From positions 124,001 to 188,000 of the forward strand of contig JAGQSC010000019.1 in NCBI GenBank assembly GCA_020439745.1: a DNA stretch of 64,000 nt. Reading direction: 5' to 3'. Under the pieces are notes generated by a model. It ran no database searches, was not told the DNA's origin, and was given only the letters and a program-made list of their open reading frames with translations. Each line of letters starts with the position of its first letter. Position 1 is the first letter of the stretch. The translations under genes and the position numbers were made by a program. This DNA is from Acidobacteriota bacterium (GTDB lineage: Bacteria > Acidobacteriota > Holophagae > Acanthopleuribacterales > Acanthopleuribacteraceae). Shown one piece after another: positions 27,799 through 37,180 of this stretch.

Positions 27799-29352
27799 AT
27801 GGCCAAAACCATGCTGTTCTTCTGCTTGACAGGCATGTCCTTCGGACAAGTTTTCTACGTTTCGACGACCGGGTCGAACACAACTGGGTCAGGCAGTATG
27901 GGAAACCCATGGGCTACGATTGAGTTTGCCGTAGAAAACGTCCCTGACCATGCCACGATCTTGGTAGCTGCAGGCCTTTATTCAGGCCGCATACGTTTGG
28001 ACGAACACTTTGTCAACGGAATCGCCATTCAAAGTGATCCGCCCTACTTAGCCCTGTTGCGCCACACCAGTACCGTGCTCACTTGTTTCGATGGATCAGG
28101 GATCACCCTGGAGGGCTTCGACATCGCTCACACGAGTAGTGGCGCGGGCCCACTTGTGATGCAGGTTCAGGGCGCAAATACTGAGCGGCTCATCATCCGT
28201 AACAACATCTTTCACGACAGTTACAACAACGATTTGTTGAAAATCAATAACGGATGTCGCGATGTTCTGGTGGAAGGCAATGTGTTTTATAACCAGTCGG
28301 GCTCCGACGAACACATCGACATCAATGGCGTTGTCAATGTGGAAGTCCGCGACAATATTTTCTTCAATGATTTCGTCGGCAGTGGTCGCGTCAACAACAA
28401 CAATACGAGCAGTTACATCGTCATCAAGAACTCGGGCGGGTTACCGCAAAACGAACAGTTCCATGTTCACCGAAACATCTTCCTCAATTGGGAAGGCTCT
28501 TCAGGATCCAATTTTTTGTTGTTTGGTGAGGACGGGCATGGTTTCTACGAAGCCCGCGACGCATTGGTAGAGAACAACCTCTTCATAGGTAACTCGAGCA
28601 ACAACATGCGGGCTTGTTTTGGCGTTAAGGGGTGCCGTGAAATCACCTTCCGCAATAACACGGTAGTTGGTGACCTGCCCTCGCTGGCGTTTGCCATGCG
28701 CTTAAACCGCGAAGGCTCCAATCTGATCAATGAAGAAATCTATTTCTACAACAACATCTGGTCAGACCCAACTGGCACCATGGGTGCTGAGTTTGGCACC
28801 AGCAACAATGACTTCTCTGACACGCCCCCAGCCGACACCAACACCTTTGCCATCGACAACAATCTCTACTGGAACAACGGATCCGCCATCCCGTTCCAGG
28901 CAGGTGAACTGGTGAACTACACCGACGACAGCAACCGCATTGAAGGTAACCCAATGTTACCAATCCACGCGGGGATTGTACTTCCCCGGTGGGATCCCCT
29001 CGCCATGCAGTTCCTCAGTGGAAACCTCAGCATTCGCAGTGAATTTGAACGGCTCGCACAACTAGCGGCAATTGCCGCTGGTAGTTTCGCCATTGATGTC
29101 GCCAATCCCACTCAAAGTCCAGTAGACGACATCTTAGGTGAGAACCGCGGACCATCGCCAGATATCGGTGCATTTGAATCGAATCCCTGTATGTTAATCG
29201 GAGACTTGGACAGCGACTCCGACGTGGATTTCGATGATCTTCTCTTGCTTTTGCCAAACTGGAGGCAAAGTACGTATGATTTGGATGGCGATGGCACGGT
29301 AACTATTCTGGATGGCGCCTTATTAATCCAGTCATTTGGTAGCTGTCCTTAA
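27799..29352 (+). CDS. Secreted right-handed parallel beta-helix protein with dockerin-like tail
   Basis: After a signal peptide (MAKTMLFFCLTGMSFGQ) the 517-residue protein opens with YVSTTGSNTTGSGSMGNPWATIEFA, the usual start of right-handed beta-helix polysaccharide-binding or lyase-like proteins. It continues with many Asn-rich turns (IIRNNIFHDS, LVEGNVFYN, EVRDNIFFND, LVENNLFIGN). The last 50 residues contain two calcium-loop repeats, GDLDSDSDVDFDDLLLLL and DLDGDGTVTILDGALL, as in dockerin-type modules. It could bind or cleave an extracellular polysaccharide; no catalytic set is identifiable. The start is the ATG at 27799. It lies between a propeller kinase and a propeller-kinase transcription-factor-like protein. 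Its TAA stop is shared with the convergent gene through TTAA. Confidence 0.8.
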   Translation: MAKTMLFFCLTGMSFGQVFYVSTTGSNTTGSGSMGNPWATIEFAVENVPDHATILVAAGLYSGRIRLDEHFVNGIAIQSDPPYLALLRHTSTVLTCFDGSGITLEGFDIAHTSSGAGPLVMQVQGANTERLIIRNNIFHDSYNNDLLKINNGCRDVLVEGNVFYNQSGSDEHIDINGVVNVEVRDNIFFNDFVGSGRVNNNNTSSYIVIKNSGGLPQNEQFHVHRNIFLNWEGSSGSNFLLFGEDGHGFYEARDALVENNLFIGNSSNNMRACFGVKGCREITFRNNTVVGDLPSLAFAMRLNREGSNLINEEIYFYNNIWSDPTGTMGAEFGTSNNDFSDTPPADTNTFAIDNNLYWNNGSAIPFQAGELVNYTDDSNRIEGNPMLPIHAGIVLPRWDPLAMQFLSGNLSIRSEFERLAQLAAIAAGSFAIDVANPTQSPVDDILGENRGPSPDIGAFESNPCMLIGDLDSDSDVDFDDLLLLLPNWRQSTYDLDGDGTVTILDGALLIQSFGSCP

Positions 29353-32264
29353 GGGCTAAAAACCGACACCCAGCGATCAAAATCTGGAACCAGTATGAGC
29401 TGTGACGTGGCCGAAACGACTCCGCCCACCATCAATGACCCGTGCCAGTCGTACCAATTGCTGAGACTCGCGCCATCTGGTAGCTGCCACAACACGCGGG
29501 ATTGTGCGGGATTATCCAGCATGAGCGCTACGACGCGTATCCTTCCCTGAACATCCATTTCATCAAACACCAACTCACGGGAATCGGGCGAGAACCTCGG
29601 GCGCATTCCTGCCTTGCCGGCACTTCTGGCCCGATTGATTACGAATCGTTCGTTCACGATGGTTCCATCACGGTCAAGCTCGGCAACGTGAAGGCTTTGC
29701 GTGGTGGATGAGCGAATCACGGCTGCCAGGAATCGGCCGTCTGCCGAAATCGACGGATTAACACCTTCCATGCATCTCTTCATCTCTCCGGTATTTAGGG
29801 TCATCCTAAACACCTCTTCCACGCCATCGCGGTCCGTCACCCAATAAATCGACTTGCCATCGGGATGCCAAACTGGTTGAAAGTCGTTGGCCATATCTTG
29901 TGTCAAGGGACGCGCATTCGATCCATCCACACCAGCAATCCACAAATCGCTCTGCGTCTCGGAAACGCTGGAATAGGCGAGACGATCTCCTTCGGGCGAC
30001 CACGCCGGATTGCACGACGCCACACCCGTGGCAATAGCAGGATAGGTCGATCCATCCCGCAAGTCCAATACCCAGATCTCGTAGTTACGCGTCAAATAGG
30101 CCAGTCGTTCGCCTGTGGGGTCAAATCTCGGTTGAGAACATTCAAAACGATCCACCAGTGCCGGAATTCGCGGATCCGGTTCTTCAGACAGATTCCAAGC
30201 CATCAGCCGAGTTGTGACTTGTTCATGACGTACCAACAAATGTGCTCGAGATTGATCCAAGCTTGGACTGCGAAACCGACCGGGAAACGAGAAAACGCGG
30301 GTGAAAGGCTGGTGCCGTGGCCCGCTGAGCACCAAATTGGGTCCCAAACCATCTGCCTCCAGAACGCTCCAAACTACGGAGCCGTCGCCAGCCACGGCCA
30401 AACCACGACCGCACCATCCCGCCACTTGCGCGATGGTCGTCAAGTCACCCTTTTCATTGACACGAAAAAGCGAAGCATGATGGTATCCATCCGTGCGCGA
30501 CAAGATAAGTTCATCTTTGTCAAAGGCCAAACCGTATGGTTCGTCAGCTCCTTCAAGGACCAACCACTCGGTCCGATCGGTTCCGTCCCGATTCACGACG
30601 ATCAAGACGTTCTTATGGTCTCGCTGATCAAAGCAGGCCACCTTGGTGCCATCGCTTGAAACAGCGGGCCACCAGCCCGACGTGATCCGACGGGGAGAAC
30701 CCCCCGACCAGGGCACTTCGAATATGGCAGCATGCTGCTCGGCATCCACTGCATCAAAAAAGAGGAACTCACCGCGAGGATCCGTCGCAAGGTTACCCAC
30801 AAGTTCGCGGTCCAAGATCCTACGGGACTCGCCAGGTCCAATCGGAGCAACCCATATTCCGGGCTGGTTCACCTTCGAATACGCGAACATGGAGACATCA
30901 GGCGCCAATACAGAGTAATTGGTTTCCTGAGCCAGAATTCGCATGTTTGCCTGGGGCGGTTCCGTTTGCTTTAATCCCGCCACCAAAAGGCCAAGCCACA
31001 ATCCGATGGCAAGCAAGCCCAGCCCTATCAAAGGACGAACCCAGGAAAAACTATGTTCAGGAGTATCTTCAAGGTCCAATAACACATCGCGTGCATGGTG
31101 GTACCGACGGTTTCGGTCCGAATTCAAGCAACGCACCAGTACTTGGGAAAAGGCGCGTGCCGATGTCGGCAATAAAGACGGGTCAAATTCAAAGCACATT
31201 AACGATGCCAATTGTTCGTGCATGGGTCCTGCCCGAAATAGAGGCTTGTGGCAAATCATCTCGAAAAAAACGGCGCCAAACGAAAAGATATCCGCCCGAA
31301 TATCCACGGCTAGGTTTTCAAGTTGTTCAGGTGCAAGGTAACCGGGTGTGCCGACGAATACACCCTCGCGGGTGAGGTTTGGTGTGTCGTCAGATTCATG
31401 GGTAACCTGTGGGCTTGGGGTCAAATCAGCTGCCAACTTGGCCAACCCTAAATCAAGAATTTTGATGTGGCCCTCATCAGTCACCATGATGTTTTCCGGC
31501 TTGATATCCCGATGCACGATGCCTCTATCGTGGGCAACCGCCAGGCCTTCCAACAATTGCCTTGCCAACGAAAGCGCTTCGCTTGTTGAAGGTCGATGGC
31601 GTTTCAACCAGGTACGGAGTGTTTCGCCCTTGACCATTTCCATCACCAGGAAAGGCACCAATGTGGGGTTTTCTGGCGGCCAATACCCCTCACCTACTTC
31701 GTAGATTTGCGCAATACATGGGTGATTGAAGGCTGCTAGTGCTACCATCTCCCGTTTGAAGCGCAGTTGGGTATCTTCCAGAATGGAAGGGCTTCGAAAT
31801 GTCTTAATAGCCACATCGCGGTTGAGTTTGGTGTCTCGAGCCTTCCAAACTGACGCCATACCCCCGCTCCCAATCAGACACTCCATCTCGAAACGGTCTA
31901 ATCGGTAGGTAGACAGGGTCGTGTTAGGGTGTGTCACGGGGACGACCTCGCGCCCTTCCTCTATTTCAAATACCCATTTGTAACCTTTCTTGGGAAAGTT
32001 CTGAATGAACCGTTCGTCGCGTGCACTACTTCCCAGATGGGTTCGTAGTTCTCGAATTGCTTGGAACAACACTTGATCGGAAACTGCCGTTTCGGCCCAA
32101 ACACGCTCCATAATGATCGACTTGGTAAGCAGATTGCCACGGTTTTCCAGAAACAAGGCAAGAAGATGCGCCACTTTCGGTCGCATCTCGACAACCTGAC
32201 CATCTCCCTGCAGCTCTCCCGTATGGCTATCGAAGACAAATTCACCAAAACGGTAGAGGGCCAC
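29349..32264 (-). CDS. Winged-helix / Ser-Thr kinase / TolB-propeller fusion
   Basis: Residues 1-103 are an OmpR/CadC-type winged helix (YRFGEFVFDSHTGEL, FLENRGNLLTKSIIMERVW, FIQNFPKKGYKWVFEIE). Residues 124-400 are a Hanks kinase with GSGGMASVWK (132-141), Lys154, HRDIKPEN (251-258) and DLG (271-273) in place of DFG. A membrane helix lies at about 409-430, followed by some 530 residues of PD40/TolB-like propeller blades (TDPRGEFLFFD, WWPAVSSDGTKVACF, PAWSPEGDRLAYSS, RPRFSPDSRELVFDE). One chain could therefore bind DNA, phosphorylate proteins and sense the periplasm, as known in acidobacterial genomes. The start is the GTG at 32264. The target promoter is unknown. Confidence 0.9.
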   Translation of the reverse strand: MALYRFGEFVFDSHTGELQGDGQVVEMRPKVAHLLALFLENRGNLLTKSIIMERVWAETAVSDQVLFQAIRELRTHLGSSARDERFIQNFPKKGYKWVFEIEEGREVVPVTHPNTTLSTYRLDRFEMECLIGSGGMASVWKARDTKLNRDVAIKTFRSPSILEDTQLRFKREMVALAAFNHPCIAQIYEVGEGYWPPENPTLVPFLVMEMVKGETLRTWLKRHRPSTSEALSLARQLLEGLAVAHDRGIVHRDIKPENIMVTDEGHIKILDLGLAKLAADLTPSPQVTHESDDTPNLTREGVFVGTPGYLAPEQLENLAVDIRADIFSFGAVFFEMICHKPLFRAGPMHEQLASLMCFEFDPSLLPTSARAFSQVLVRCLNSDRNRRYHHARDVLLDLEDTPEHSFSWVRPLIGLGLLAIGLWLGLLVAGLKQTEPPQANMRILAQETNYSVLAPDVSMFAYSKVNQPGIWVAPIGPGESRRILDRELVGNLATDPRGEFLFFDAVDAEQHAAIFEVPWSGGSPRRITSGWWPAVSSDGTKVACFDQRDHKNVLIVVNRDGTDRTEWLVLEGADEPYGLAFDKDELILSRTDGYHHASLFRVNEKGDLTTIAQVAGWCGRGLAVAGDGSVVWSVLEADGLGPNLVLSGPRHQPFTRVFSFPGRFRSPSLDQSRAHLLVRHEQVTTRLMAWNLSEEPDPRIPALVDRFECSQPRFDPTGERLAYLTRNYEIWVLDLRDGSTYPAIATGVASCNPAWSPEGDRLAYSSVSETQSDLWIAGVDGSNARPLTQDMANDFQPVWHPDGKSIYWVTDRDGVEEVFRMTLNTGEMKRCMEGVNPSISADGRFLAAVIRSSTTQSLHVAELDRDGTIVNERFVINRARSAGKAGMRPRFSPDSRELVFDEMDVQGRIRVVALMLDNPAQSRVLWQLPDGASLSNWYDWHGSLMVGGVVSATSQLILVPDFDRWVSVFSP

Positions 32265-32358
32265 GTCATCTCACTTGCTTTTTTGGGCTATTTTAACCTA
32301 CGTGTAACCCATATGACTCCTAACCCCGTCTAACCAAACAAAACCGAAGGAGGTCATG

Positions 32359-33093
32359 ATGATTGCATTTGTATTACTTAGTGGTTTGTTGTTGAGTCAT
32401 GAAGCGACCCAACAATATCAATTCGAGGTATCGGCCGGTAGCGCCCTTCAACTGGAGACCCACAAGGGTCATGTAGAAATTCGGCGCCACAGCAAGCCCC
32501 AGATCACGGTGCACGTCCGTAAGTGGGACAACTACGAAGGCGAAACACTGGACCAAGTCACCGTAAACGTCACCCAACACGGTAACCAAGTGACAGCCGA
32601 AGTGGATTACCGCGACGCCGATTTCAGCGGTATTTGGCAAAAACGCGACACCGAAAGCCCCTTCGTGGACTTCACCATATTCGTGCCTGACGACTGTGAC
32701 CTCACGGTTGAAGACCATAAGTCGGATTTGGATATTGAAGCCACAACCGGTCGAATGAGGCTGGACACCCACAAGGGTGAGGGTCGCATCTTCAACGTGG
32801 AAGGGCCCCTGACTCTTGACACTCATAAAGGCGTGATCGAAGTGTCATTCGTGGTGTTCAAAGGAGCGCAAGTGGACACCCACAAGGGGAAAGTGACGCT
32901 GAAAACAGGGCGCTTGGCCGATGTAGACATTTGGGCCGAAACCCACAAGGGCGACATCATTTTTCAAGGGACCGACCTCAAAATGCAGCGGAATGATGAT
33001 CACGAAATGGTGCTCCAGCGTAAACTGGGCGCCGGTACTTGGCCCCTTCGCATTGATACCCATAAAGGCGAAGTGACGATTGATGCTCGCTGA
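32359..33093 (+). CDS. Exported DUF4097-like beta-solenoid protein with THKG repeats
   Basis: A signal peptide (MIAFVLLSGLLLSHEA) precedes a repetitive beta protein of about 230 residues. The hydrophobic-Asp/Glu-Thr-His-Lys-Gly-x-(V/I) turn recurs: LETHKGHVEI, LDTHKGEGRI, LDTHKGVIEV, VDTHKGKVTL, AETHKGDIIF, IDTHKGEVTI, plus a variant EDHKSDLDI. Spacing in the second half is 18, 18, 19, 21 and 39 residues, as expected for successive solenoid turns. In DUF4097 adhesin-like proteins the equivalent turn is usually SGD, so the fold assignment is likely but the HKG ladder is distinctive. AAGGAGG lies 5 nt before the second ATG (32359), preferred over 32356. The gene overlaps the ECF sigma gene by 11 nt. 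Confidence 0.7.
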   Translation: MIAFVLLSGLLLSHEATQQYQFEVSAGSALQLETHKGHVEIRRHSKPQITVHVRKWDNYEGETLDQVTVNVTQHGNQVTAEVDYRDADFSGIWQKRDTESPFVDFTIFVPDDCDLTVEDHKSDLDIEATTGRMRLDTHKGEGRIFNVEGPLTLDTHKGVIEVSFVVFKGAQVDTHKGKVTLKTGRLADVDIWAETHKGDIIFQGTDLKMQRNDDHEMVLQRKLGAGTWPLRIDTHKGEVTIDAR

Positions 33094-33610
33094 AAGCGAA
33101 CTGGTCAAGCAGTCGCAAAAGGGCGACGCAACTGCTTTCATGCAGTTGATTGAACGGCATGACCACCGCATTATGTCGGTGGTCCACCGTTTCACTTTTG
33201 ACCAGTTCGATCGCGATGATATCTACCAGGAAGTCTTCCTGGCCGCATTCAAGAATGTCCGTCGCTTTCGAGGTGATTGTGCCTTTGCAACCTGGTTGCT
33301 GCGCATTGCGCTCAATCGCTGCATCGATCTGGAGCGGAAACGCAAGAAAGAGCGTTGGCTGGAACTGCCCAGCCAGGCTATTGATCCCCAACAATCACAA
33401 AAACTGGCAAGCGTGTATCGGGCCCTTCGCCACCTGGCGAAAGGCCCTCGAACCTGCTTCCAACTCCACTATCTGGAAGGTATGACCGTCGAAGAAATCG
33501 CGGATTTGCTGTCATGTCGGTCCGGAACTGTAAAGAGCCAGTTGAATCGAGCAAGGAAACAAATCCGCCAACACGATGAGGTGCAACAATGGATCCAGGC
33601 AACCGCTTAA
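33083..33610 (+). CDS. ECF-type RNA polymerase sigma factor
   Basis: The 175-residue protein has a sigma-70 region 2 (QKGDATAFMQLIERHDHRI, FDRDDIYQEVFLAAFKNVRRF, FATWLLRIALNRCIDLERKR) and region 4 (LHYLEGMTVEEIADLLSCRSGTVKSQLNRARKQI) with the helix-turn-helix. That is the minimal ECF layout. The ATG at 33083 lies inside the 3' end of the THKG-repeat gene, and the 3' end overlaps the next membrane-protein gene by 22 nt, so the three are coupled. ECF factors are normally held by a membrane anti-sigma, for which the downstream protein is the obvious candidate. Target promoters cannot be named. Confidence 0.93.
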   Translation: MLAESELVKQSQKGDATAFMQLIERHDHRIMSVVHRFTFDQFDRDDIYQEVFLAAFKNVRRFRGDCAFATWLLRIALNRCIDLERKRKKERWLELPSQAIDPQQSQKLASVYRALRHLAKGPRTCFQLHYLEGMTVEEIADLLSCRSGTVKSQLNRARKQIRQHDEVQQWIQATA

Positions 33611-34122
33611 GAGACACAATCGTAACCACAGAGGAAGAATTGGTTCAGCGCCGTCAAGCGCTTGCCCGAAAATTGATCCATGCGCCCAATCCTCAGCGAT
33701 TTTGGCCATTCGCAGTGCCAGTGTTGGCCGCCGCCCTGGCCTTGATGATCTTATTTTGGCCAGCAGCTTCGCTTGACCGCGCAGACATTGATACGCTCAA
33801 CGCATTCTTGTCGGAAAATCAGGCTGAAACGGTGCGCATCCAGGCGCACAAGCTAATCAATTCCGGGTCATTTACCGCACAAACCAATGGCCACTACCTG
33901 ATGGCCATGAGCCAACCCAACGGTCAAGGACTGGGTGCTTTGCTGGCCGCTCTGGAGGCTCAGCCACCCTATCCCTATCGACAGATCTACCTGGAACGAT
34001 TAATCGATCTATCTGATTCTTACCGACTTGGCGATGATTTGCTGGATCATTGGGTAGATCTGGAGACAGATCCCTTGTGCATGGATTTGCTGGAAGTGCT
34101 GGTCACCGCGAATTCAGGTTGA
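33589..34122 (+). CDS. Single-span membrane protein, candidate anti-sigma factor
   Basis: This 177-residue protein has a roughly 40-residue cytoplasmic part rich in Arg/Glu (TTEEELVQRRQALARKL), one membrane helix (about 44-62: FAVPVLAAALALMILFW), and a roughly 110-residue periplasmic helical domain. The topology is that of an anti-sigma factor, but I see no zinc-binding HxxxCxxC anti-sigma motif, so it may be an atypical or unrelated regulator. Its start overlaps the sigma gene by 22 nt, which supports a functional pairing. Confidence 0.6.
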   Translation: MDPGNRLRDTIVTTEEELVQRRQALARKLIHAPNPQRFWPFAVPVLAAALALMILFWPAASLDRADIDTLNAFLSENQAETVRIQAHKLINSGSFTAQTNGHYLMAMSQPNGQGLGALLAALEAQPPYPYRQIYLERLIDLSDSYRLGDDLLDHWVDLETDPLCMDLLEVLVTANSG

Positions 34123-34147: not shown

Positions 34148-37100
34148 TCAATGAAGAGAGACTTGATCAGGTTTTTCCAAGAACGTTTCCTGACCACCAT
34201 GTGGTAACCAGATCTTGAGTTCGTAACGCGACCCCTTCTTCTCGGCACGAATCTTTCCTCCCACCTCTTGAATCAGATTGGCTGATTCATGCATGTCGAT
34301 ATGCGCTTGGCTGGAGTAGACATCATGGTACTGAGTAAACAGGTGCTGCAGTGCCGATCCACTTAGGCTTGGCGCTGAACCCGAAATACAAATGGCGGGC
34401 GCCGGGTTTTCTCCCACGTGAATCGTCACGGGATCGTCTGCATGGCCGTCCAAAGACCATTTCAAAAAGGTGGTCAGTGCTTTCTTCAAATGGTAACGGG
34501 GAATTTCGACAACCTTATGATCGTCACACACAATTTGCAGGCGTTCTACGTCGGTTGCAGTGGTGACCTCCGTTCGAATCTCGTTGAGAAGGGTACACAA
34601 ATTCACGCGCTGCTGGAGTAGCGGCATTGCGGCCATATTCTCCTGGTCTTTGATGGCATCGCACAAAGTTTGAACAGAAAGTTCCAGATCTCTCAGTTCG
34701 TGGAGTGCCGCATCGGTGCGTTTTCCTTGGATACCCGTGAATCGACGCAAGGCAGCAACAATCGTTTCAATTGTCGCTGTATCTGAATTACGTTCTAGTC
34801 GGTCCACCAGCCTATGAATAAACGCCACTTCCGAAGGGTCCCCTGCTTTTTCCTTTAGTTCCTGGACGGACACCTGCAGGCTATTCAAGGTGTTGCCGAT
34901 GCGGTGTAGAGATTGCCGCGCCTGTTGTGCCATTCCGGCAACATGGGCGGACTCCACCAGTTGTTCCTGTAAGTTCACCAGTTCCCGATTGGCTTGCCGC
35001 AGAGACTGGGTGCGTTTGCTGATCTCCAGCTCGAGGACACGTTTGCGCTTCCTGATGGCACGAATACGCATACGGCCAATCCAAATAGAAACCAAAACAC
35101 ACATCACCAAAAAGCCAATTTGAAACAAACTGGTTTCCCACCAAGCCTGTCGCACCACAAACGGAAAATGCGCAACCTGCTTTGAAGGACGACCCAATGC
35201 GTCCAGCGTTCGTAACTCAAACACGTATTTGCCAGAACCTAGTTTGGCAAAAACCACACGAGGCGACTCCTGTGATTCAGACCACTGTTGGTCGGCACCA
35301 ACTAATCGGTATTGAAACGGCACACGTCCTCTCAAGTGGATGGCGTGGAAGTCGATGGTCAAATCGGGTTCATGGGCCAGCGTTTGGCCGGGACTTATTT
35401 CCTTTCCGTTCACGCGGATGGCATCAATGACAGGTACAGGTTCTCGGTTATGAGCACGTTCCAAGAATGGGATGTAACGGCTCAAGCCTTTGCCACAACC
35501 AAACCACAGTCCATTGTTCTTGTCCCGAGCGATGGCTGTGGCTGTGGCTTCAAGCCCAGCAATCCCATCGTCCAAATCAAAGTTAAACCATTGGCCTGCA
35601 GGAGTCCTCAAACTGATGCCTTGGTTATGGGCCAGCCATAGCGCATCCTGGTGGGCCATCACTTGCCACACAAAGTTGTTCTTAAGGCCTTGTTCTTTAT
35701 CCATAATATCCACGGACTCGCCATCCACACAAACCACACCCAATCCGTTGGTTGCCCACCAGATTCGGTCCCGCTCATCGCAATAGATGGACCAGGCCGT
35801 GGCAGGGGCAAGTGCGGAAAAATCGCGGGTTTCTCCCGAATCTGGATCAAAAGAGATGACACCATTTGAGGTGGCTATCCACAATTTTCCGTGACTATCT
35901 TCAGTGAACGCGACCACGTTTCTGCCTTTGAGTCCGATCTCCACAGTTTCGTATGAACCGTCTCGATGCCAGAGCGTCAATTGACTATGGCCAATCCATC
36001 TTCTGCCGCGCTTGTCCACATACACGGATTGCATGGGAAAATTGGGGCCTTCGTCTTTTGAAATGGTCCGCAATTGGGAACCATCCCATACATAAAGCCC
36101 TTCAGCGGTTGCAAATAAAACGGTGCCATCGGTGTCCTGGCTGATGCCGTAAACCGAAGGCTTCATGCGTGGATCCGGCTGTATGAACACGCCCTTGTCT
36201 TCATAGGCAATACCAGCCCGAGTCCCGATCCAGACACGGTTTGTGGCGTCTACATAAATGGCACGAACCACAGGGCTTGGCAGGCCATCAGCTAATCCAA
36301 ATCGCTGAAAAGGACCCGGTAAGTAGACAGCCAGTGAGTCCACGGTGGCTATCCAAAGGTTTTGTTCTTCGTCCAGAAGAACATCACCAATGTCGTCACT
36401 GGGCAGGCCATGTTGCGTGGTGATGTGTATCCAATAGGTTTGATGGCGCAACCAAATGCCATTTTGTGCACCAATCCACAGGTTCCCATTTGGCGAAGCC
36501 ACGCATGCGTTCACCAGCAGATCTTCATCCGGAAATGGAATCAAATCTTGTGATTGGCTGTCCCATACTCCATCCGGAGTCACCAACATCACTTCGGCTG
36601 CTCCTCGGACCAAGGCAAACGCACGTAATCCCCTGGGAATTGTCACAGGCTCCCAGTTGGATCCACGGCGAACCAGCACCCCTTCGGGCGCAAAATACGC
36701 GACACGACCGTCGCGCAAAGACACAAGATCAGAATCAAAAGACTGATCATAGGTGAAGATACTCGTGCTTTGATTGCCAGTCAGTTCCAGAAGCCCGACC
36801 GACGTGGCCACAAAAGTACGGCCATCCACAGTCACCATAGCCCTCGGATTGGCATCCGGCAAGATATGGGTCCATTGCCCATCATCTCTACTCCAGACCC
36901 CCCCGTCTTGATAACCTATCAGCGGAGTACCGTCTGTTTTCAAACAAATACAAGATGTTTTGGCAGCTTGCATACCGATCGGACTGCCGTAATCCTTCCA
37001 ATTGACACCATCAAATCGCGTCAATCCGGCATAGGTCGCCACCCACAAATAACCCGAATCATCGAGATAAATCGCCAATGGCTGGCTTTGCGGCATACCG

Positions 37101-37180
37101 TCGCGTACAGAAAATGCCTTGAAATTGAGCTGCTGGGCCATGCCCAACCAACACGCCATCCATATGCCACAAATGCGCAC
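34148..37180 (-). CDS. Propeller sensor with degenerate histidine kinase domain
   Basis: The 1010-residue protein has a signal peptide (MRICGIWMACWLGMAQQ, GTG start), about twelve Reg_prop blades (LWVATYAGLTRFDGVNW, LWIGAQNGIWLR, VWIGTRAGIAYED), a Y_Y_Y domain (DFHAIHLRGRVPFQYRLVG), and a membrane helix near 690. The coiled helix pair retains a phosphoacceptor-like His near 758 (SLHRIGNTLNS). The ATP-binding domain is decayed: the N-box position reads ALTTFLKWSLDG with no Asn, the G1 position reads CISGSAPSLSG with no DxG, and the G2 region reads IDMHESANLI. It probably cannot bind ATP. It may act as a receptor or phosphotransfer partner for another kinase, such as the intact propeller kinase at 24.3-27.7 kb. 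Confidence 0.85.
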   Translation of the reverse strand: MRICGIWMACWLGMAQQLNFKAFSVRDGMPQSQPLAIYLDDSGYLWVATYAGLTRFDGVNWKDYGSPIGMQAAKTSCICLKTDGTPLIGYQDGGVWSRDDGQWTHILPDANPRAMVTVDGRTFVATSVGLLELTGNQSTSIFTYDQSFDSDLVSLRDGRVAYFAPEGVLVRRGSNWEPVTIPRGLRAFALVRGAAEVMLVTPDGVWDSQSQDLIPFPDEDLLVNACVASPNGNLWIGAQNGIWLRHQTYWIHITTQHGLPSDDIGDVLLDEEQNLWIATVDSLAVYLPGPFQRFGLADGLPSPVVRAIYVDATNRVWIGTRAGIAYEDKGVFIQPDPRMKPSVYGISQDTDGTVLFATAEGLYVWDGSQLRTISKDEGPNFPMQSVYVDKRGRRWIGHSQLTLWHRDGSYETVEIGLKGRNVVAFTEDSHGKLWIATSNGVISFDPDSGETRDFSALAPATAWSIYCDERDRIWWATNGLGVVCVDGESVDIMDKEQGLKNNFVWQVMAHQDALWLAHNQGISLRTPAGQWFNFDLDDGIAGLEATATAIARDKNNGLWFGCGKGLSRYIPFLERAHNREPVPVIDAIRVNGKEISPGQTLAHEPDLTIDFHAIHLRGRVPFQYRLVGADQQWSESQESPRVVFAKLGSGKYVFELRTLDALGRPSKQVAHFPFVVRQAWWETSLFQIGFLVMCVLVSIWIGRMRIRAIRKRKRVLELEISKRTQSLRQANRELVNLQEQLVESAHVAGMAQQARQSLHRIGNTLNSLQVSVQELKEKAGDPSEVAFIHRLVDRLERNSDTATIETIVAALRRFTGIQGKRTDAALHELRDLELSVQTLCDAIKDQENMAAMPLLQQRVNLCTLLNEIRTEVTTATDVERLQIVCDDHKVVEIPRYHLKKALTTFLKWSLDGHADDPVTIHVGENPAPAICISGSAPSLSGSALQHLFTQYHDVYSSQAHIDMHESANLIQEVGGKIRAEKKGSRYELKIWLPHGGQETFLEKPDQVSLH

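Follow-up and report, generated by a model that had tools for sequence, protein, structure and literature searches.

A His-Lys turn ladder in a DUF4097/toastrack protein encoded beside an ECF sigma factor in an Acidobacteriota bacterium

The toastrack gene and its product

Within the window, the 64,000 nucleotide stretch of Acidobacteriota DNA that was analysed, a gene for a DUF4097/toastrack protein of 244 amino acids lies on the forward strand at 32359-33093. The open reading frame runs from 32356 to 33093 and the ATG at 32359, which has a GGAGG upstream, is the probable start. The PF13349 (DUF4097/toastrack) profile matches the protein at 34.9 bits against a curated cut-off of 22.9 (E 1.3e-8), in agreement with the initial annotation of this DNA, which had described a DUF4097-type solenoid. 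The N-terminus resembles a signal peptide, and hydrophobic N-termini were also seen by eye in the orthologues. Judged from these features the protein is presumably exported and periplasmic, although one study (PMC11237479) argues for an intracellular location of toastrack domains and this counts against such a placement. The overall composition is acidic, with 40 Asp and Glu residues against 28 Lys and Arg.

An AlphaFold model generated from a two-sequence alignment of the window protein and a second toastrack, L142, had a pLDDT of 76 and a pTM of 0.76. The best matches to this model by Foldseek and VIA-align were 3lyc, 3ljy, 4opw, 3pet and 4qrk with Z of about 15 (14.8-15.6 by VIA-align against toastrack-type structures). 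The Foldseek E value of 1.2e-6 to 4qrk identifies the right-handed single-stranded beta-helix fold of the 4QRK/4OPW type. Unlike the fold search, PDB sequence searches run with A2 and L228 produced no convincing match.

The ECF operon

The ATG of the following gene (33083-33610, forward strand) precedes the toastrack stop codon (33091-33093) and the two genes overlap by 11 bases, confirming the overlap reported in the initial annotation. The product is an ECF sigma factor with both Sigma70 region 2 and region 4 (PF04542 and PF08281, both about 4e-16). The sigma gene in turn overlaps by 22 bases a third forward-strand gene (33589-34122) encoding an anti-sigma-like protein that probably has a single transmembrane segment. 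This protein has no Pfam match and matches an NCBIfam anti-sigma model weakly (20.3 bits against a cut-off of 100, E 4.5e-4); it is 26-29% identical to the gene product at the same place in three relatives (alignment A5). The order toastrack, ECF factor, anti-sigma-like protein is common to the window and the genomes G001, G004 and G269. To this extent the coupling of ladder and ECF factor suggested at the outset is upheld, but it is not specific to the His-Lys-Gly (HKG) ladder: toastracks of the same bacterial family with VSG and MGG ladders also adjoin ECF genes, and in G003 the HKG ladder is kept while no ECF gene was found in the neighbourhood retrieved. Operons in which a toastrack is linked to a sigma factor have been noted previously (PMC11237479).

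A candidate ECF-type promoter (GTAACC-N17-CGTC) lies upstream of the operon at 32304-32330 on the forward strand. Both boxes are present in G001 with a different spacer, and the first box, GTAACC, is present upstream of the operon in G004. The motif was no commoner genome-wide than a reversed control in G000 and G001, and a scan for sigma-70 promoters found nothing.

The operon is flanked by two reverse-strand genes. The divergent gene at 29349-32264 encodes winged-helix DNA-binding and Ser/Thr kinase domains and PD40 repeats in a single protein. That at 34148-37180 encodes a long protein with Reg_prop propeller repeats and a Y_Y_Y domain, the C-terminal stretch of which resembles a sensor kinase by eye. 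Elsewhere in the window's own genome (L043:5439-7810, reverse strand) genes for an ECF factor, an anti-sigma-like protein and a toastrack with an MGG ladder occur in a row; the anti-sigma-like protein there has a weak HEAT match, as does that of G269.

The HKG turns of the window protein

HKG occurs six times and HKS once in the window protein, at residues 35-37 (HKG, 32461-32469), 120-122 (HKS, 32716-32724), 138-140 (HKG, 32770-32778), 156-158 (HKG, 32824-32832), 175-177 (HKG, 32881-32889), 196-198 (HKG, 32944-32952) and 235-237 (HKG, 33061-33069), all on the forward strand. Consecutive HK pairs are thus separated by 85, 18, 18, 19, 21 and 39 residues, and a recount gave the same numbers and spacings as the initial annotation. 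In 20,000 shuffles of the sequence HKG occurred a mean of 0.065 times and at most twice. The HK codons vary over the seven turns (CACAAG, CATAAG and CATAAA), which indicates that the turns did not arise recently by copying of a single DNA unit. Recent duplication of the turns at the DNA level was rejected on this ground and because the strand positions are not alike.

In the AlphaFold model each HKG or HKS lies between two consecutive strands and the middle turns are spaced one coil apart. This is as expected of the column of His and Lys on one face that had been proposed for the protein; the regular spacing suggests that the turns are stacked along one edge. Asp or Glu stands two residues ahead of His in most coils.

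The nearest relatives of the protein (in G001, G004 and G003) all belong to the same bacterial family; G002 and G006 gave weak, distant matches only and G005 gave none. In an alignment of the window protein with three orthologues (A1; four genomes from three genera), which are approximately 33-49% identical to it, all seven HK pairs are invariant, and the residues of the HKG and HKS turns account for 21 of the 47 invariant columns. The conservation in orthologues that the initial annotation had named as a check is therefore present.

Back-translated patterns found no close relatives in genome contigs, with the single window protein as source, and, with A2 as source, none in viral contigs; a plasmid megablast gave no match. 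The matches listed for a three-HKG DNA pattern in genome contigs were mostly CRISPR arrays and low-complexity repeats, L142 being the one true toastrack among them. Profile searches within the phylum recovered relatives whose ladders are TYKG, THNG, TDRG, TVNG, TVSG and others, and the closest relatives outside the family have TYKG turns.

Uniform ladders across DUF4097

The HKG ladder had been regarded as unusual for DUF4097. This view does not hold, as in most of the sampled DUF4097 proteins a single turn dipeptide predominates and recurs around the solenoid; it may be VN, SG, VS, YK, HK, GD or another. Among 96 non-redundant DUF4097-type proteins, identity between the turns of one protein was 0.39 at the first and 0.55 at the second turn residue, compared with 0.11 and 0.16 in a permuted control in which turns were dealt among proteins; these figures are indicative, since turns were located by a regular expression in which both turn residues are unconstrained, and since the Acidobacteriota proteins were mostly gathered with an HK/YK model that favours basic ladders. 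The set had been freed by eye of 22 spurious frames; with none removed (all 118 proteins) the values were 0.37 and 0.50 against 0.10 and 0.14. By phylum the 96 comprise 57 Acidobacteriota, 27 Bacteroidota, 8 Pseudomonadota and 4 others, and homogeneity was not convincing in the 8 Pseudomonadota proteins on their own. The excess lies mainly at positions -2 and -1 from the Gly; it is smaller at +1, -3 and -4, and strand positions show almost none.

Identity at turn position x1 also depends on the distance between coils, falling from 0.65 for adjacent coils through 0.59, 0.53 and 0.51 to 0.48 at five apart. Shuffling the order of the turns gave about 0.57, and none of 1000 shuffles reached the adjacent value. 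This decay fits stacking between adjoining coils, although the similarity of neighbours could in part reflect shared coil history or end effects, as first and last turns often differ. Mixed ladders do occur, with Phe or His among Tyr and Phe among His. Asp or Glu is found at -2 before x1 in 72% of cases in HK, YK and DR ladders against 31% in other ladders, which is consistent with charge balance. In one Bacteroidota toastrack, L239, the ladder is TSHG, with His at the second turn position too.

Switching of the ladder between relatives

Related proteins with aligned coils differ in their whole ladders. The clearest case is the operon copy in G269, in which all seven turns have Tyr instead of His with Lys unchanged (alignment A4); this copy lies on a 5.5 kb contig in an assembly with 5% contamination and the contig may itself be a contaminant. 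In a maximum-likelihood tree built with the turns masked, HK ladders fall in two separate regions and well-supported branches force at least two changes of HK state; the tree is rooted at its midpoint only and gives no direction of change. The second HK ladder has an HN ladder as its partner in the tree, and the DR ladders are nested among the YK ladders. No description of ladder-wide switching of turn type was found in a limited search of the open-access literature.

Paralogous toastracks in one genome may also carry different ladders; the window's genome, for example, has HK, VS and MG, and G101 has IN, VS, GD and DR. It is conceivable, though doubtful, that each paralogue has a uniform ladder of its own which serves as a recognition code, through homotypic edge pairing or a ladder-specific ligand, and so keeps paralogous envelope-stress circuits apart.

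A possible function for the ladder

These data can be accommodated if seven equivalent strand-strand turns of a presumed periplasmic DUF4097 beta-solenoid, each bearing His-Lys-Gly/Ser, stack into a column in which planar side chains (His) accompany basic ones (Lys). Neighbour-to-neighbour stacking of coils would disfavour mixed ladders and could thereby account for the uniformity; a mixed ladder being less favourable, a lineage would change its whole ladder (Tyr/His, Lys/Asn, YK/DR). The toastrack gene opens an operon in which it is followed by overlapping genes for the ECF sigma factor and the membrane anti-sigma-like protein, and the most likely role of its product would be to take part, from the periplasm, in an envelope-stress circuit. 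The protein may use its ladder edge both to bind an anionic partner or another protein and to act on the anti-sigma factor, and the operon may be autoregulated from the ECF-like promoter. On balance we consider it probable that the toastrack belongs to a possibly autoregulated ECF/anti-sigma module and that its ladder of Lys and planar residues (His, Tyr or Phe) forms a stacked edge that may be a binding surface.

More tentatively, the ladder may present a face that binds an anionic polymer or a glycan, with Lys as the key residue and His, Tyr or Phe serving for stacking. The constancy of Lys across HK and YK ladders and the regular spacing of one turn per coil would suit such a face, whereas related proteins of the same fold have uncharged ladders (VN, TN, VS), the acidic -2 residues could neutralise the column, and acidic residues outnumber basic ones in the entire protein. 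The initial annotation had pointed to His as the operative residue, in an array that binds metal or senses pH, and this we now regard as very unlikely. Seven invariant His residues in four genomes and three genera, together with His at the same turn position in the HN ladder of another family, are what such an array would predict, but Tyr stands in place of every one of the seven in a copy of the same operon and of most in the wider clade, and Phe is found in some turns. With Tyr at seven of seven turns in one operon copy, where Lys is kept, and TYKG in the closest relatives outside the family, a conserved function specific to His is unlikely; the lack of His conservation that the annotation itself took as telling against it is seen outside the family and not inside. 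That the likeness of turns arises solely from coil duplication or gene conversion is improbable, for although solenoids usually grow by coil duplication and neighbouring turns are the more alike, the likeness is confined to the turn with no excess at strand positions, codons differ between the turn copies and related proteins with aligned coils differ in whole ladders.

Relation to known systems

Side-chain ladders are known in beta-helices, for example the Asn ladders of pectate lyases, which are similar in that like residues stack along a solenoid. The toastrack ladder differs in lying at a strand-strand turn and in being switched as a set between relatives. The LiaG model of Firmicutes envelope stress (NF049997) matches residues 128-242 of the window protein (E 9.7e-9), but at 34.8 bits against an equivalog cut-off of 285 the protein is not assigned to LiaG. 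DUF4097 is also found in LiaX. The regulators differ, LiaG and LiaX systems having LiaFSR where the window module has an ECF factor and an anti-sigma-like protein. In LiaX, itself part of a stress system, the C-terminal domain is what controls signalling (PMC11601895). The window protein resembles the toastrack domain (DUF4097/DUF2154/DUF2807) of PMC11237479 in its Pfam match, in its fold (4QRK, 4OPW) and in its association with transcriptional regulators, an operonic sigma factor among them. It differs in that it stands alone with a signal-peptide-like N-terminus instead of being fused to PspC or LiaI-LiaF-TM; no mention of a uniform turn ladder was found in the parts of that study available.

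The ladder has the appearance of a family-wide stacking rule in DUF4097 rather than of a special histidine sensor of metal or acid. The most defensible claim is that toastracks carry a ladder that is restricted to the turn, coupled between neighbours and switchable, of which the window protein is the HK example in an ECF module. If stacking forces the turns to change jointly, a simple, readable rule would sort a widespread and poorly understood family into ladder types. Such a rule, if true, would offer a direct test of side-chain stacking as a constraint on solenoid evolution and a handle on what stress-linked toastrack domains bind.
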